Assembly: GCA_036405135.1 (NCBI GenBank)
Contig: DASWYF010000020.1
Coordinates: forward strand, 310,001-374,000
Source of the DNA: Verrucomicrobiia bacterium
Lineage (GTDB): Bacteria; Verrucomicrobiota; Verrucomicrobiia; Limisphaerales; JAEYXS01
DNA length: 64,000 nt
Reading direction: 5' to 3'
How positions within the stretch are numbered: the first letter of the stretch is position 1; each line of letters opens with the position of its first letter. A program made the translations under genes and the position numbers. The notes beneath the pieces were generated by a model, which saw nothing but the letters and a program-made list of their open reading frames with translations, was not told where the DNA came from and did not search any database. Below are positions 53,547 to 64,000 of the stretch, in pieces.

Positions 53547-54482
53547 ATGAAAAGTTACCATCTGGACCATTTGCAGTATTTGGAAACGGAAGCGATTCAC
53601 GTGATGCGTGAAGTCGCGGCGGAGTTCGAGCGCCCGGCTTTGTTGTTCTCCGGCGGCAAGGACTCCATCTGTCTCCTCCGTCTTGCGGAGAAGGCATTCC
53701 GCCCATCGGATATCCCGATGCCGTTCCTGAACGTCGAGACCGGCCACGAGTTTCCTGAGTTGCTGGAATTCCGTGATCGCCGCGCCAAGGAACTCGGAGC
53801 GAAATTGATCGTCCGCACGGTGGATCAAGCGGTCGCCAACGGCACCGCTGTCCTGACGAAAGCGGAGATCAGCCGTAACAAATTGCAGATCCCCGTGCTG
53901 CTCGGTGCCATCGAAGAGTACCGTTTCGATTGCTGCATCGGTGGTGCTCGCCGTGATGAAGAGAAGGCGCGTGCGAAGGAACGCTTCTTCAGCTTCCGCG
54001 ATGGCTTCGGCCAGTGGGATCCGAAGAACCAGCGTCCGGAATTGTGGAATCTCTACAACGCGCGCCTGAACCCGGGCGAGAACATGCGCGTGTTCCCGCT
54101 CTCCAACTGGACGGAGATGGATGTGTGGGAATACATCAAGCGCGAGAAGCTCGAAGTGCCGAACATCTACTTCAGCCACACGCGCGAGTGCTTCCGCCGT
54201 GCCGGTCAATGGTTACCAGTGCCGCCGCCGCATACCGATCCAAATACACCCGATCCATTTGCGGGTGCGCGTCCGGGCAACGAGCCGCGCAAGACGATGG
54301 TCTGCCGCGTGCGCACGATCGCAGACATGATCAGCACTGGCATGCTGGAATCCCCGGCCACGACCATTGATGACATCATCGGTGAGATCTCCGCCGCTCG
54401 CGTGACGGAACGCGGTTCCCGCGCCGATGACAAGGCTTCCGAAGCCGCGATGGAAGACCGCAAGAAGCAGGGGTATTTCTAA
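53547..54482 (+). CDS. cysD: Sulfate adenylyltransferase subunit 2
   Basis: The small catalytic subunit of ATP sulfurylase (311 aa), making APS from ATP and sulfate. It carries the PP-loop LLFSGGKDSICLLRLA (Ser-Gly-Gly-Lys-Asp at 35-40), the CCIGGARRDEEKARAKERF segment and the VFPLSNWTEMDVWEYI motif, all typical of CysD. Its partner CysN (a GTPase) is coded 929 bases downstream rather than next to it, because a BRO-N gene lies between. Confidence 0.96.
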   Translation: MKSYHLDHLQYLETEAIHVMREVAAEFERPALLFSGGKDSICLLRLAEKAFRPSDIPMPFLNVETGHEFPELLEFRDRRAKELGAKLIVRTVDQAVANGTAVLTKAEISRNKLQIPVLLGAIEEYRFDCCIGGARRDEEKARAKERFFSFRDGFGQWDPKNQRPELWNLYNARLNPGENMRVFPLSNWTEMDVWEYIKREKLEVPNIYFSHTRECFRRAGQWLPVPPPHTDPNTPDPFAGARPGNEPRKTMVCRVRTIADMISTGMLESPATTIDDIIGEISAARVTERGSRADDKASEAAMEDRKKQGYF

Positions 54483-54488
54483 GATTCC

Positions 54489-55346
54489 GTGAGCGAATCC
54501 CCATTAAATCCTGAGAATCGCATCGCGCTTTTTCAAAAGCGCGAGATTCGTCGTGTCATTCACGAGGGGGAATGGTGGTTTGTCATTGCTGACGTTATTG
54601 CTGTTTTAACCGATTCAGTAGATCCCTCTGGCTATCTGAAAGATATGCGTCGAAGGGATCCTGAAATCAGCAAAGGGTGGGGGCAAATTGCCACCCCCCT
54701 TTTGGTTGATACAACAGGTGGGCAGCAAAAGCTTAACTGTGCCAATACTGAGGGTGTTTTCCGTCTGATTCAAAGCATTCCTAGCCCCAAAGCTGAACCG
54801 TTCAAGCGTTGGTTGGCCAAAGTGGGTTATGAACGCATTCAAGAGATTGAGAATCCCGAACTCGCCAGCAAGCGTGTGCGTGCTATCTACAAGTCTAAAG
54901 GCTATTCAGAGGACTGGATCGAGAAACGGATGCGTTCCATTGCCATTCGTGATGAACTGACGGATGAATGGAAAAAACGGGGAGTCAAGGAACAGCGCGA
55001 GTATGCCATTCTGACCGCAGAGATATCCAAAGCGACGTTTGGCCTGACACCGACGGAATATACAGAATTGAAAAACCTTAAGCGTGAGAACCTTCGTGAT
55101 CACATGACGGATCTCGAGCTTATTTTCTCAATGCTGGGTGAAGCATCAACCACCGAGATAGCGAGAAACAAAGATGCTCAAGGCTTTCCACAAAATAAAA
55201 AAGCTGCTTTAGAAGGTGGCGCAGTAGCAGGCAATGCTCGACGGGAGTTGGAGCAACGGAGCGGACGCAAGGTGGTCACCTCTGAAAATTATCTTTCGTT
55301 AACCCAGTCAGTTAAAAAAGCTAAACGTGTGAAAGGGAAATCATGA
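54489..55346 (+). CDS. BRO-N domain protein, DinD-like
   Basis: A 285-aa protein beginning with GTG six bases after cysD. The N-terminal half is a BRO-N (phage antirepressor type) domain: REIRRVIHEGEWWFVIADVI, a central GVFRLIQSIPSPKAEPFKRW and a RIQEIENPEL boundary. The C-terminal half has the DinD-like block LKRENLRDHMTDLELIF and KAALEGGAVAGNARRELE. Such proteins are found as single genes in many bacteria and in phages, with DNA-damage links for DinD. It splits the cysD-cysN pair and is clearly AT-richer than both, so it looks like an acquired insertion. Confidence 0.82.
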   Translation: MSESPLNPENRIALFQKREIRRVIHEGEWWFVIADVIAVLTDSVDPSGYLKDMRRRDPEISKGWGQIATPLLVDTTGGQQKLNCANTEGVFRLIQSIPSPKAEPFKRWLAKVGYERIQEIENPELASKRVRAIYKSKGYSEDWIEKRMRSIAIRDELTDEWKKRGVKEQREYAILTAEISKATFGLTPTEYTELKNLKRENLRDHMTDLELIFSMLGEASTTEIARNKDAQGFPQNKKAALEGGAVAGNARRELEQRSGRKVVTSENYLSLTQSVKKAKRVKGKS

Positions 55347-55410: not shown

Positions 55411-56724
55411 ATGAGTCAGCATCCTATCGAAATTCTCCGGTTCAACACGTGCGGCAGCGTGGATGACGGCAAGTCCACGCTCATCGGCCGTCTGCTCTAC
55501 GATTCGAAGTCGTTGATGGAAGACCAGCTTGAGGCGTTGCAGCGCTCGGCGGACATCACCGGTGGTGGTCAGGTGAATCTGGCCAACCTCACAGATGGTC
55601 TGCGTGCGGAACGCGAACAAGGCATCACGATCGATGTGGCCTATCGCTACTTCGCTACGCCGAAGCGCAAGTTCATCGTGGCCGATACTCCGGGGCACGT
55701 GCAGTACACGCGCAACATGGTAACGGGCGCCTCCACGGCGAACCTCTCCGTAGTGCTCGTCGATGCCCGTCTCGGCGTCATCGAACAGACCCGCCGTCAC
55801 TCCTACATCGCCGCGTTGCTAGGCATTCCGCACGTGGTGTTCGCGATCAACAAGATGGACCTCGTGGATTGGAGCGAAGAGCGCTTCCTTGAGATCCGCG
55901 ACGAGATCGAAGGTTTCTTGCCGCGCCTCGATGTGTTGAAGGATGTGAAGTTCATCCCCATCAGCGCATTGAACGGTGACAACGTGGTGGAGCCGTCCAA
56001 GCATACGCCGTGGTATCAAGGCCCCGCGTTGCTCGGTCATTTGGAGACGGTGCATATCGCGAGCGATTGGAACATGGGCGCTTTCCGCCTGCCGGTGCAA
56101 TGGGTGAACCGCCCGAACAATCCGCGTGACCAGAAGTTGCACGACTTCCGCGGCCTGAGCGGCCAGATCGCTGGCGGCATCGTGAAGGTCGGCCAAGAAG
56201 TGCGCGTGCTGCCCGGAGGCCAGAAGAGCAAGGTGAAACAGATCTGGACCTACGATGGTGAGATTGAAGAAGCCTTCTGCCCGCAATCCGTCACGGTCGT
56301 GTTGGAGCACGACATCGACATCAGCCGTGGTGACATCCTGATCGGTCAGGAAAACTTGCCGGGCAAGAGTTCGGAACTGCATGCTCGCATCTGCTGGATG
56401 CATGACCGTCCGCTGGCAAGCGGGAAGAAATACTTCCTTAAGCACGGCACACAAACCGTGCAAGCAATCGTCACGGCCATCGAGCATAAGATCAATATCC
56501 AGACGTATGATGTGGAACCCGCGCCAGCCGCGCTTGCGATGAACGACATCGGCGAGATCCGCGTGCGCGTTTCCAAGCCGCTCATCTATGACGGCTACTC
56601 CACGAACCGCCTCATGGGCTCCTTCATCCTCATCGAGCAAGGAACGAACCTTACGGTCGGTGCAGGCATGCTCCACGCACCGTTGGAACCTGTGAAGCCG
56701 GAATACGACGACTTCGCGATCTAA
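55411..56724 (+). CDS. cysN: Sulfate adenylyltransferase subunit 1
   Basis: The GTPase subunit of ATP sulfurylase (437 aa), whose GTP hydrolysis drives APS formation by CysD. G motifs are FNTCGSVDDGKSTLIGRLLY (G1 at 15-23), GITIDVAYRYF, VADTPGH and FAINKMDLVDW. The C-terminal beta-barrels match EF-Tu-like CysN. It stops at about 437 aa without a fused APS kinase domain (CysC), unlike the fused CysNC. It begins 64 bases after the BRO-N gene and is followed by a strong terminator. Confidence 0.96.
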   Translation: MSQHPIEILRFNTCGSVDDGKSTLIGRLLYDSKSLMEDQLEALQRSADITGGGQVNLANLTDGLRAEREQGITIDVAYRYFATPKRKFIVADTPGHVQYTRNMVTGASTANLSVVLVDARLGVIEQTRRHSYIAALLGIPHVVFAINKMDLVDWSEERFLEIRDEIEGFLPRLDVLKDVKFIPISALNGDNVVEPSKHTPWYQGPALLGHLETVHIASDWNMGAFRLPVQWVNRPNNPRDQKLHDFRGLSGQIAGGIVKVGQEVRVLPGGQKSKVKQIWTYDGEIEEAFCPQSVTVVLEHDIDISRGDILIGQENLPGKSSELHARICWMHDRPLASGKKYFLKHGTQTVQAIVTAIEHKINIQTYDVEPAPAALAMNDIGEIRVRVSKPLIYDGYSTNRLMGSFILIEQGTNLTVGAGMLHAPLEPVKPEYDDFAI

Positions 56725-59635: not shown

Positions 59636-60067
59636 TTAAGCGTCGATTGCCTTGATGCGGCGTTCGTGGCGGCCACCACCGAAGGGCGTATTGAGAAAGG
59701 CGTTCACAATCGCAATCGCCGTTTCTTCGGTGACCATGCGTTGGCCGATGGAGATGATGTTCGCGTTGTTATGCTCGCGCGTGAGTTGCGCAGACTCCAC
59801 GTTCCAGCACAGGCCACAACGGATGCCTTTGACGCGATTGGCCACGATGGCTTCGCCATTGCCGGAACCGCCGAGGACGATGCCGCGCTCGAATTCACCA
59901 GCGGCCACACGCTCTGCAACAGGACGGATATACTGCGGGTAATCGACGGCAGGTGTTTCCGTGTAGGGACCCAAATCATGCACATCATGGCCCAAAGATT
60001 TCAGGTATCGGCCGATGATCTCTTTGTAACGGACACCGGCGTGGTCGCTGCCCAAGGCAATCTTCAT
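59636..60067 (-). CDS. rpiB: Ribose-5-phosphate isomerase B, Glu type
   Basis: A 143-aa isomerase interconverting ribulose-5-P and ribose-5-P, starting at ATG 60067 (MKIALGSDHAGVRYKEII); a longer frame to 60163 runs into the kinase gene. The site loop reads LGGSGNGEAIVANRV with Glu72. The usual catalytic Cys of E. coli RpiB is missing, as in the mycobacterial form, in which a Glu serves as base. HNNANIISIGQRMVTEETA is the C-terminal family block. It lies 11 bases after the REC-kinase gene, an unusual partner. Confidence 0.93.
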   Translation of the reverse strand: MKIALGSDHAGVRYKEIIGRYLKSLGHDVHDLGPYTETPAVDYPQYIRPVAERVAAGEFERGIVLGGSGNGEAIVANRVKGIRCGLCWNVESAQLTREHNNANIISIGQRMVTEETAIAIVNAFLNTPFGGGRHERRIKAIDA

Positions 60068-60078
60068 AATAAAATGAG

Positions 60079-61215
60079 TTACTGAACGGGCGGGATGGTG
60101 CCTTTGGCGCATGGAAGTGAAAAGTAAAACGTAGCACCTTCGCCGACTTTGCCTTCCGCCCACGTCTTGCCGCCATGACGGGCGATGATGCGACGTACGT
60201 TCGCCAAACCTACGCCGACGCCTTCGAATTCCTCTTTGCGGTGCAAGCGCTGGAAAACGCCGAAGAGCTTGTCCGCATACTTCATGTCGAAGCCCACGCC
60301 GTTGTCTTTCACGAAGATGGTGGCCTCTGTATCGTTCGCTGAAGCCCCAATTTCGATCACCGCAGGATTGCGTGGTTTGCTATATTTGATGGCGTTGAGG
60401 ATCAGATTGCTCAAGACGTGCCGAAGGAGAAAGGGATCAGCTTGTACGTTGGGCAAATCTGCGATATTCCATTCTATGTTCCGGTCTTTCGTCTCGGGCT
60501 TGAGCTGCTGGATGATCTCTTCCACCAGTGCTTTCAGTTCCACCTCGGTCTGCCACATCTCCGTGCGGCTCATGCGGGAGAATTCGAGCAGATCATCGAT
60601 CATCTGGCCCATCTGTTTGGCGGAACTGGCGATGAGACCTAGGTAGTTGCGCTCCTCATCGGTGAAATGCGAATCGGAATCTTTGAGGAAATCTATAAAG
60701 CCATTGATATGCCGCAACGGAGTGCGCAGATCGTGGGAAACCGAATAGGAAAAAGCTTCGAGTTCTTTGTTCGCCTCTTCGAGTTGCACCGTGCGTTCGC
60801 GAACGCTTTGACCCAAGGCGATGTTTTCGAGGCGCAAACGCCGTATCGACATGGCTCGAGATAGCACGGGGAGAACGACGCTCAGTTTGAATGGTTTCAG
60901 GATATAATCCAACGCGCCGGACTTCATCGCTTCCACGGCGGTGGCAATGGTGCCTTCACCGGTCATGATGATCCCGACAAGATCGGGATCTTTCTCCAAG
61001 GCTCCTTGGAGCAAATTGATACCGTTCATCTCCGGCATCATGAGGTCGGTGAGCAGCAGATCGTATTCAGATTTCCTCAGGCTTTCGAGCGCCGCTTTGG
61101 CGGAGGAGAAGCCGACCGTGTCGTAGCCGTGATCCTTGAGCGTGTTGCACAGCGCCTTCATCTGGGCGCTTTCGTCGTCGACGATCAGGATTCTTGGCGC
61201 TGGAGTATCGGCCAT
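60079..61215 (-). CDS. Response-regulator/histidine-kinase protein (REC-HisKA-HATPase)
   Basis: A 378-aa soluble kinase from ATG 61215 (13 more codons are open to 61254). A REC domain (about 8-125) has the phospho-acceptor Asp in LLLTDLMMPEMNG, then a helical linker and HisKA with the phosphorylated His in SYSVSHDLRTPLRHINGF, and an HATPase domain with LSNLILNAIKYSK, VKDNGVGFDMKY and GVGVGLANVRRII. No membrane segment. This layout is used for signals passed from another kinase to the REC domain, here perhaps the hybrid kinase coded upstream. It is followed by rpiB. Confidence 0.9.
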   Translation of the reverse strand: MADTPAPRILIVDDESAQMKALCNTLKDHGYDTVGFSSAKAALESLRKSEYDLLLTDLMMPEMNGINLLQGALEKDPDLVGIIMTGEGTIATAVEAMKSGALDYILKPFKLSVVLPVLSRAMSIRRLRLENIALGQSVRERTVQLEEANKELEAFSYSVSHDLRTPLRHINGFIDFLKDSDSHFTDEERNYLGLIASSAKQMGQMIDDLLEFSRMSRTEMWQTEVELKALVEEIIQQLKPETKDRNIEWNIADLPNVQADPFLLRHVLSNLILNAIKYSKPRNPAVIEIGASANDTEATIFVKDNGVGFDMKYADKLFGVFQRLHRKEEFEGVGVGLANVRRIIARHGGKTWAEGKVGEGATFYFSLPCAKGTIPPVQ

Positions 61216-61328
61216 AGGCTTAAGGTTTGCCTGTCCAGGCTGGCTGGTTCGCATGAGCTTGTCTCAGGCGGCAGGGCTGGCGGACAGTTTCACAATGTTC
61301 CGCGATTTATGCAAATGTCCAAATCCTG

Positions 61329-63794
61329 TCATGGATTTTTTTGTGTCAATTGCGCCAGGGCTTCGCGCATTTCCCGTAATTTTGGCGGTTTGTTCAATAC
61401 TTTGTCCACATGCGGCGGGATGTCCCCTTCTGCCACGAGCCGCTGGCCCCAGCCGGTGAGCATGATCACGGGTGTGTTTTCAGAAATGCTCTTGATGGCA
61501 GCGGCGACTTTGCGGCCATCCACGTAAGGCATTCCCAAATCGGTGATGACGGCAGAAAATCGTTCACCACTGTCGTGCGTCTTGCGGAAGGTGTCGATGC
61601 CTTCCTGACCGCCATTGGCAGAGACGATGGCATGACCATCACCGGCAAGGGTGTCAGAGAGAGATTTGATCAGGAGCGGGTCGTCATCAACGATCAAAAT
61701 GCGGAGACGGCTGGGGATCACGAAAGCCTCGGCCGCCGGGCCGATGTGTCCATTGGTGGTGACGGGCACAGGGAAGCCGATCCGCATGGTGGTACCTTTG
61801 CCAGTTGCGCTGTCGATCTCGATCTCGGCATTGTGACGGCGCACGATGCCGTAAACCATCGCCAGACCGAGGCCGGTGCCGCGTTCGCCTTTGGTGGTGA
61901 AGAATGGTTCGAGGCAACGCCGCCGCGTGCTTTCATCCATGCCCACCCCTGTATCGCTGACTTCGATGTGAACGAGTTTGGAAGGTGGTTGGGATGTTTT
62001 GGTGCGCAGCGTCAATGTGCCGCCTTCAGGCATGGCATCGACGGCGTTGAAGATGAGGTTTACCAGGGCTTCACGGATCTCGCTTTCCACACCCATTACT
62101 GGAGGCAGTTCTGGAGCGAGATCGGTTTCCAGTTTGATGAAGATGCCTCGTTGTTGCGGCATGTCGCTCCAGCGGGCGCGCGCGAGGTCGATGACCTGTT
62201 GCACAAGCTGGTTCAGCTTCACCGGCAGCAAAGTGAGCTCCGTTTCGCGCTGGCGGTAGAATTCACGCATGCGTGCGACGGTGTGGGAAACATCCTCGAT
62301 CGCGTGTTGGATGGTGGTCAGGTAATCGCGGGCGCGCTCACTGAGGTTCGGTTCCCGTTCCAGCAAGGATTCGGTGTAAAGCGCGACGGGTGAGATGGCG
62401 TTGTTGATGTCGTGGGCGATGCCGCTGGCCATCTGTCCGAGGGCCTTCAGGCGTTCTTGCTGCATGATGGCCTGCTGGGTTTGGCGCAGGTCATCGTACG
62501 CTTTTTGCAGTGCTTCGTAGAGATTTGCCTGATGCGCGGCGAGGGCGACGTGTTCGCTCAATTGCCGGAGAAACTCGCATTCGCCACTGCTGAAACTGTT
62601 AACTGTTTTCCTGGCGGCTACCAGCACGCCGAAGACTTTGCTTTCGACGAGCAAGGGAGCGGCGACGAAGGAGCGCAGGCCGCCTTTGGCTAGACGTTGC
62701 GGGAAAGGGAACTTGGCCTCGCTTATATCCGGCTCGTAGACGAGCTGGCCGCGTACACAACGGGAAAGGCCGTTTTGATCGATTTCGACCTTGGCCTGAT
62801 TTGTCATGGCGAGATCCGTGGCCAAGGTCTGGCATTGCACACCCACATTGGCCACGGTGAGCATGTTCGCCGAGGGGTCGTAGAGGCAGATGCAGATGAA
62901 GTCGATGGGCAGGCGCTCTTCCAAGGTTCGGACGACCACCTGGAATATGCTGGGCAGGTCGAGGCGTTCGCCGATGGCGCGCGTGATGCGATGCAGGAGT
63001 TCGAGGCGCGCCAGTTGGGATTGTGTGCGGATGTCTGCTTCATTGCGTTGAGCGACTTCCTCTTTCAAAGACTCATTGGCTTTGCGCAGCGCCGCATCGC
63101 GTTCATCGATGCCCCTAAGGAATAGATTGAAGGCATCGGTCAACGCGCCGACTTCATTTTTTCCATTAGGCGGGACGCGTACGGAGTAGTCTTTCTTCTC
63201 GGCGATGGTTTTGACCGTTTCCGTCAATGCCAGCAAAGGCTGGGAGATCGGCTTTTGCAATGGCTTGGCCACAACAAAGGCGATGAGGACTGAACCGAGC
63301 ACGACGAGCAGGCCGATGAACAGGGAAACACCCAAACGCTGGAACAGGCCTTTCAGGTCGCTTTGGAGATAGAGCGTGCCGATGCGTTTCCCGTCCAGAT
63401 CGATAGGGCGGTAGAGTTTCAAATTACCTGCGGCATAACGATGGCCGTCCTTGCCCGGGTGGTCGGGGAAATCGATGACGTTCCCCTCGCGTTTGTAATC
63501 GGCAAAGGGTTCACCTTTGGCATTGTAAACACGGGCGGCGATGATGTGGGGCTCGGATTGCAACGCCTGCAGCACTTGCGCCGCTGCCTCGTTATCCTGA
63601 AAGGAGAGGGCAGCGCGGGTGTTTTGGGCGAGCACGTCCGCCAGCACAGTCGTGCTCCGCGCCATGGTGATCCGATAATCGAAGAACTGGTAAATGGCGA
63701 GCAGGCCGCAGGCTAGGAGAAGGACGACTACGCAGGTAAGCTGGATGACCAACGTCACTTTCCGCTTCAGGGGAAGGTCATTGAGCCATTTCAT
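61329..63794 (-). CDS. CHASE8 hybrid sensor histidine kinase
   Basis: An 821-aa inner-membrane hybrid kinase from ATG 63794. Layout: helix about 12-36; periplasmic CHASE8-like sensor about 45-155 (LADVLAQNTRAALSFQDNEA); helix about 160-180; HAMP about 180-235; coiled coil; GAF about 270-420; HisKA with GIAHDINNAISPVALYTESL; HATPase with NLIFNAVDAMPEGG and GTGLGLAMVYGIVRRH; C-terminal REC about 700-821 with Asp in AVITDLGMPYVDG. CHASE8 is the sensor of YfiN-type diguanylate cyclases, here joined to a kinase. It starts one base after the stop of a YfiR-like gene. Confidence 0.88.
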   Translation of the reverse strand: MKWLNDLPLKRKVTLVIQLTCVVVLLLACGLLAIYQFFDYRITMARSTTVLADVLAQNTRAALSFQDNEAAAQVLQALQSEPHIIAARVYNAKGEPFADYKREGNVIDFPDHPGKDGHRYAAGNLKLYRPIDLDGKRIGTLYLQSDLKGLFQRLGVSLFIGLLVVLGSVLIAFVVAKPLQKPISQPLLALTETVKTIAEKKDYSVRVPPNGKNEVGALTDAFNLFLRGIDERDAALRKANESLKEEVAQRNEADIRTQSQLARLELLHRITRAIGERLDLPSIFQVVVRTLEERLPIDFICICLYDPSANMLTVANVGVQCQTLATDLAMTNQAKVEIDQNGLSRCVRGQLVYEPDISEAKFPFPQRLAKGGLRSFVAAPLLVESKVFGVLVAARKTVNSFSSGECEFLRQLSEHVALAAHQANLYEALQKAYDDLRQTQQAIMQQERLKALGQMASGIAHDINNAISPVALYTESLLEREPNLSERARDYLTTIQHAIEDVSHTVARMREFYRQRETELTLLPVKLNQLVQQVIDLARARWSDMPQQRGIFIKLETDLAPELPPVMGVESEIREALVNLIFNAVDAMPEGGTLTLRTKTSQPPSKLVHIEVSDTGVGMDESTRRRCLEPFFTTKGERGTGLGLAMVYGIVRRHNAEIEIDSATGKGTTMRIGFPVPVTTNGHIGPAAEAFVIPSRLRILIVDDDPLLIKSLSDTLAGDGHAIVSANGGQEGIDTFRKTHDSGERFSAVITDLGMPYVDGRKVAAAIKSISENTPVIMLTGWGQRLVAEGDIPPHVDKVLNKPPKLREMREALAQLTQKNP

Positions 63795-63795
63795 G

Positions 63796-64000
63796 CTATT
63801 TGCCCCCCTTTCCCTCGACGATTTTTCCAAGGCTCAGGAGATCGGAGCGGATCTTGAGGCCGCAACGCTGGGCGGCGGCCGGATTTATCTCAAAGCGGAT
63901 CTTGGTTTTTTCCGGATAAAAGCCGATATGCCCGCCACCGGTGCAGAATCCGTCCGTTTCCCCCACTACGAGTATCGGACGGGTGGCGGCATCGGCCACT
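63796..64000 (-). CDS. YfiR/DUF4154 family protein, C-terminal part
   Basis: The last 67 residues of a gene that begins beyond the right edge. The sequence VLVVGETDGFCTGGGHIGFY (the GFC...GG.I.F block) and IRFEINPAAAQRCGLKIRSD followed by LLSLGKIV is the C-terminal signature of the DUF4154/YfiR family, small periplasmic regulators. In Pseudomonas, YfiR binds the CHASE8 domain of the cyclase YfiN and keeps it off. Here the stop codon lies one base before the ATG of a CHASE8 hybrid kinase, so the pair is probably translated together. Confidence 0.8.
   Translation of the reverse strand, partial: VADAATRPILVVGETDGFCTGGGHIGFYPEKTKIRFEINPAAAQRCGLKIRSDLLSLGKIVEGKGGK

Follow-up and report, generated by a model that had tools for sequence, protein, structure and literature searches.

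A conserved operon of a TonB-dependent receptor, a YfiR-like protein and a CHASE8 histidine kinase as a candidate signalling route from the outer membrane

The operon that enters a 64,000-nucleotide stretch of contig DASWYF010000020.1 from a Verrucomicrobiia bacterium (hereafter the window, meaning the whole stretch analysed) has a core unit of three genes, coding for a TonB-dependent receptor, a YfiR-like protein (yfiR, DUF4154) and a histidine kinase with a CHASE8 sensor. This operon is real and well conserved; the same arrangement is found widely among bacteria and has been catalogued before. As the most likely reading, to which we give slightly better than even chances, the operon carries a signal from the outer-membrane receptor via the periplasmic YfiR to the CHASE8 histidine kinase. 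The coupling of YfiR to a kinase has already been published by itself, and the role of the receptor is the part that is worth testing. The features of the window to which the text refers are the following:

63796..64000 (-): 3' part of the yfiR-like gene (DUF4154), which runs on beyond the window to G000:C20:374347 (L003:10348)
61329..63794 (-): CHASE8 hybrid histidine kinase of 821 aa, assigned by its Pfam domains, ATG at 63794
63366..63668 (-): CHASE8 periplasmic sensor domain of the kinase, residues 43-143 (PF17152, 74 bits, cut-off 27)
63600..63614 (-): AALSF motif in CHASE8, at the same site as AAVVF of YfiN
63114..63251 (-): HAMP domain, residues 182-227 (PF00672, 38.5 bits)
62538..62960 (-): GAF domain, residues 279-419 (PF13185 and PF01590, 49.4 bits each)
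61767..62441 (-): kinase core with HisKA, residues 452-516 (PF00512, 38.1 bits), and HATPase, residues 569-676 (PF02518, 75.7 bits)
61356..61700 (-): receiver (REC) domain, residues 699-813 (PF00072, 59.4 bits)
60079..61254 (-): REC-HisKA-HATPase protein, the next downstream gene, with Pfam matches above cut-off
59636..60067 (-): rpiB, ribose-5-phosphate isomerase B (PF02502, 183.7 bits), 11 bases after the stop of the REC-kinase gene

The three genes are tightly packed. The stop codon of yfiR (63796-63798) is separated from the kinase ATG by a single base (63795), exactly as the original prediction had described, and the receptor gene, which lies outside the window immediately upstream, ends 7 bases before the yfiR ATG. 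Read as a whole on the contig, the yfiR-like gene matches DUF4154 with 152.8 bits over positions 1-142 of the 143 of the profile and is thus a full-length member of this family, as had been proposed from its C-terminus. The assignment of the kinase sensor to CHASE8 and of the output to HisKA-HATPase-REC with a GAF domain has likewise been confirmed by Pfam, which gives the domain order CHASE8-HAMP-GAF-HisKA-HATPase-REC; with HisKA, HATPase and receiver in a single chain, all above the Pfam cut-offs, the protein is a hybrid histidine kinase. Neither of the two refuting outcomes named in the original prediction, a sensor region without a CHASE8 match and a neighbour outside DUF4154, has thus occurred. 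An AlphaFold model of its N-terminal region (46 sequences) reached a pLDDT of 92.9 for the sensor region of the kinase, and structure comparison relates this region, with modest scores, to periplasmic sensors of the PAS-like kind, among them CitA and WalK. Single-sequence searches of the PDB have returned no meaningful match, neither for this sensor region nor for the YfiR-like protein alone, and the crystal structures of Pseudomonas aeruginosa YfiR have been found by an alignment profile of 40 relatives.

The trio is covered by three consecutive models of NCBIfam (release 20.0), i.e., NF053590 (TOL_0244 family TonB-dependent receptor), NF053591 (TOL_0243 family YfiR-like protein) and NF053592 ("sensor histidine kinase, YfiR-like protein-associated", HK_near_YfiR_like), which name families and state no mechanism. 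All three proteins of the operon exceed the respective cut-offs, the receptor with a score of 766.7 (cut-off 645), the YfiR-like protein with 151.2 (125) and the kinase N-terminus with 211.3 (194), and no difference has been seen at the family level. With the narrower model sequest_YfiR, the YfiR-like protein scores 42.1, under the cut-off of 85. The same genome contains two DUF4154 matches and two receptors above the NF053590 cut-off, and these receptors are exactly the ones that adjoin the two yfiR genes. The second receptor-yfiR pair, located on contig C27, is followed by a CHASE8 hybrid kinase of 1308 residues with PAS and Hpt domains, and its YfiR remains slightly under the NF053591 cut-off of 125 with a score of 117.5. 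For two more CHASE8 proteins of the genome, no YfiR was found within the flanking stretches that were read.

The REC-kinase gene and rpiB follow the operon on the same strand, again as predicted. The former is a possible phosphorelay partner of the CHASE8 kinase; among 155 comparable cassettes, the gene after the kinase codes for a REC-HK protein in 18 and for a REC-only protein in 45. The rpiB gene is probably only co-transcribed with the signalling operon. A REC-GAF-HisKA-HATPase gene in the opposite orientation has been observed upstream of these genes (L003:13578-15245, +).

The exchange of the cyclase for a kinase in YfiR systems was published in 2012. Malone et al. (2012) describe divergent YfiN proteins in which sensor kinases, HPT domains or GGDEF-EAL pairs take the place of GGDEF, and the corresponding divergent YfiNR systems, which include Thauera sp. 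MZ1T, are nearly all without YfiB (PMC3375315). These systems share with our operon the YfiR, the sensor-kinase output and mostly the lack of YfiB, whereas the TonB-dependent receptor, present here, is not mentioned in the passages of the paper considered. The YfiR-kinase pairing put forward in the original prediction is correct, but in view of that work and of NCBIfam it is not new, and the receptor makes the unit a three-gene one. With the known YfiBNR system of P. aeruginosa the operon has in common the periplasmic DUF4154 protein, the CHASE8-HAMP membrane protein and the contact residues between them; it differs in the output (GGDEF in YfiN, GAF-HisKA-HATPase-REC here), in the outer-membrane component (YfiB there, a TonB-dependent receptor and no visible YfiB here) and in the disulfide pairs of YfiR, which are broken here.

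In P. aeruginosa, the outer-membrane protein YfiB takes YfiR away from YfiN, and the YfiR surface that it binds includes the residues in contact with YfiN (PMC4655355). This finding counts in favour of signalling by the trio and provides the template for the mechanism that we propose. The kinase would be equivalent to YfiN and the receptor to YfiB, as the receptor is the conserved outer-membrane partner in this operon. YfiR would bind the CHASE8 domain and hold the kinase in one state, and the amount of YfiR free to act on the kinase would change when the receptor binds its ligand or is moved by TonB. Probably, a part of the receptor that faces the periplasm would compete for the same surface of YfiR, in the manner of the P. 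aeruginosa YfiB. In consequence, the flow of phosphate from the kinase to the receiver in its own chain, and perhaps also to the downstream REC-kinase, would change. With a CHASE8 kinase as the partner of the YfiR-type protein, phosphotransfer is to be expected as the output in place of c-di-GMP, and in this respect the earlier idea of YfiR-type sensing feeding a phosphorelay has stood. Its envelope-sensing part in the manner of YfiB has not, as a YfiB-like (OmpA-like lipoprotein) gene was not seen in the ORFs that flank the cassette, the conserved outer-membrane neighbour being the TonB-dependent receptor; neither has its redox part, discussed below.

Several lines of evidence argue for this signalling by the trio, beginning with the spacing of 7 bases and 1 base between the genes and with the second complete cassette of the genome. 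The residues reported for the YfiR-YfiN contact are conserved in the alignments on both sides: the AAVVF motif of YfiN is a reported YfiR contact (PMC3375315), the Phe of the corresponding AALSF motif is kept in 94% of 63 CHASE8 domains, and the contact positions 160, 162 and 183 (P. aeruginosa YfiR numbering) are occupied in the YfiR-like protein by the hydrophobic residues I, F and L. These kept residues count for the trio together with the tree distances of YfiR and CHASE8, which correlate in 96 trios with 0.59, where the largest value from 999 permutations was 0.363 and species relatedness is ignored in all values.

The genomic distribution points in the same direction. DUF4154 was detected in 43 of 388 genomes of the phylum Verrucomicrobiota, with 72 matches listed. 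Under distance limits for immediate neighbours that were chosen by us at one setting, the immediate 5' neighbour is a receptor gene for 50 of these 72 yfiR genes and the immediate 3' neighbour a CHASE8 gene for 59, with 55 of these CHASE8 frames also containing a kinase domain; a GGDEF partner was found for none of the 72. Neighbours were labelled with profiles seeded with genes of this genome on stop-to-stop frames and, for GGDEF and EAL, with simple motifs. A further set of 80 named loci, picked by similarity to the receptors of this genome and thus biased towards the trio, contains 72 loci with room downstream; in 59 of them YfiR comes next, and in 52 of these 59 it is followed by a CHASE8 kinase. 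The trio occurs in named loci from about ten phyla. Both the adjacency in the phylum and this spread have been counted for signalling by the trio.

The output, in turn, is exchangeable. Among 86 YfiR from a Gammaproteobacteria sample and three plasmid loci, 30 stand in the order receptor, YfiR, CHASE8 kinase and 8 in the order receptor, YfiR, CHASE8 GGDEF/EAL; kinase outputs amount to 46 and GGDEF/EAL outputs to 15, a count in which canonical YfiR may be under-represented, as the Gammaproteobacteria neighbourhoods stem from 80 loci with mainly the lowest-scoring matches omitted. A kinase output is accordingly commoner than GGDEF/EAL in both the phylum and the Gammaproteobacteria samples. The kinase and the GGDEF/EAL versions both appear in two annotated records, Sphingobium indicum pSRL1 and Pseudoalteromonas pPBSW1. 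In a Desulfuromonadales locus (L185:6746-11581, +) the receptor-YfiR pair is followed by CHASE8-GGDEF and on a Pseudoalteromonas plasmid (L204:3859-8482, +) by CHASE8-GGDEF-EAL, so that judged from their domains these two loci are predicted to place a c-di-GMP output behind the same receptor-YfiR input. That the pair is kept while the output switches from kinase to GGDEF/EAL counts for signalling by the trio. In a betaproteobacterium (L162) the order differs, the receptor being followed first by the CHASE8 kinase and only then by YfiR, and some genomes carry many YfiR genes, with 10 matches in one of the phylum of the window (G321) and 9 in a gammaproteobacterium (G423).

YfiR can also be fused to a kinase. 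Six such fusions, four from the phylum sample and two from the Gammaproteobacteria, have no detected CHASE8 (L101:4343-7573, -; also L071, L102, L104, L284 and L285), and the four inspected consist of YfiR, roughly 200 coiled-coil-like residues, one membrane helix and the kinase. One of them (L101) still has a receptor upstream, which we count for signalling by the trio as well.

The main rival takes the receptor for a transport gene only, which is controlled by or co-expressed with YfiR and the kinase, while the imported ligand is sensed in the periplasm by YfiR/CHASE8; we regard this as rather unlikely. It is favoured by the tree distances of the same 96 trios, in which the receptor-YfiR correlation is weak (0.294, largest permuted value 0.28) and the receptor-CHASE8 correlation of 0.224 falls within the permuted range (maximum 0.278). 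The correlations as a whole support direct partnership, short of proof because species relatedness is uncorrected, with the YfiR-CHASE8 link as the firmest and that of the receptor as weak. The weak receptor correlations count against signalling by the receptor, as do the 22 of 72 yfiR genes without a receptor immediately upstream and the occurrence of receptor relatives that have no adjoining YfiR, the former also counting for the transport reading. When YfiR and CHASE8 of a relative were modelled in a single read-through chain, with Gly in place of the stop (10 sequences), the pTM was 0.46 and no confident interface between the domains was obtained; an interface is therefore not claimed, and this result weighs against the model of signalling by the trio. 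The best structural matches of the read-through model are the YfiR crystal structures, and it also matches, more weakly than YfiR, substrate-binding proteins such as 6k1x and 5z6v, a resemblance in line with ligand sensing by YfiR. Against a receptor for transport alone stands that its adjacency to YfiR persists with a GGDEF/EAL output and also where no CHASE8 gene was detected beside yfiR, and that a receptor is kept beside one YfiR-kinase fusion; this fits direct signalling and is no proof of it. As a possible YfiR-binding peptide of the receptor, a conserved LSLEEL-like segment that lies after the signal peptide and ahead of the plug has been considered and rejected, as it goes with the receptor family more than with adjacency to YfiR: the strict pattern is found in 64/155 receptors beside YfiR vs 15/49 not beside YfiR, and a pattern loosened after viewing the sequences in 139/155 vs 39/49.

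A second alternative, which had been part of the original prediction, sees in YfiR a sensor of redox state or disulfide stress that frees the kinase under reducing conditions. A response to DTT and two pairs of cysteines are indeed known from the YfiR of P. aeruginosa (PMC3375315, PMC4655355). In the YfiR-like protein, however, Cys is aligned at 110 and 145 and Gly at their partner positions 71 and 152, so that neither of the known YfiR disulfides can form, and each pair (71-110 and 145-152) is complete in just 1 of 72 YfiR sequences. With the cysteine partners missing, the redox reading has been rejected as improbable; a different disulfide among the remaining cysteines may form. That the receptor works in the FecA manner, with its STN domain acting on an anti-sigma factor and the kinase as an unrelated neighbour, would suit a signalling operon headed by a TonB-dependent receptor and is nevertheless rejected as extremely improbable, as Pfam finds Plug and barrel only and no STN, the defining domain, in both receptors of the genome and no sigma/anti-sigma pair was noticed beside either of them.

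To our knowledge, few ways are described by which TonB-dependent receptors signal inwards, and the FecA type of surface signalling is the main one. If signalling by the trio is true, receptor-YfiR-CHASE8 would constitute a second, modular inward route in about ten phyla with two kinds of output. In this broader form, an STN-less TonB-dependent receptor would signal by capturing or releasing YfiR, which acts on a CHASE8-kinase or a CHASE8-cyclase/phosphodiesterase; the route would be widespread and possibly the missing step from alkane receptors such as OmpS to the cytoplasm, a generalization that we offer tentatively and at somewhat less than even chances. No description of such a route and no published test of how the receptor-YfiR-kinase operon works were found in the literature, and a search for YfiR together with TonB-dependent receptors gave nothing relevant in open-access papers, most subscription papers being outside its reach. 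The namesake of the receptor family, TOL_0244 of Thalassolituus oleivorans, adjoins by locus tag the YfiR-like TOL_0243. A sevenfold rise on n-C28 has been reported for TOL_0244, and a protein with 40.3% similarity to it, OmpS of Alcanivorax dieselolei, is described as an alkane sensor (PMC6304351). The alkane connection of the receptor family is a lead only; if the proposed mechanism is true, the trio would be a concrete candidate for the signal relay from receptors such as OmpS.

Elsewhere in the window, a gene of the phage-type BRO family (Bro-N, 57.6 bits; 54489-55346, +) was found to sit between the cysD-like (53547-54482) and cysN-like (55411-56724) sulfate-activation genes.
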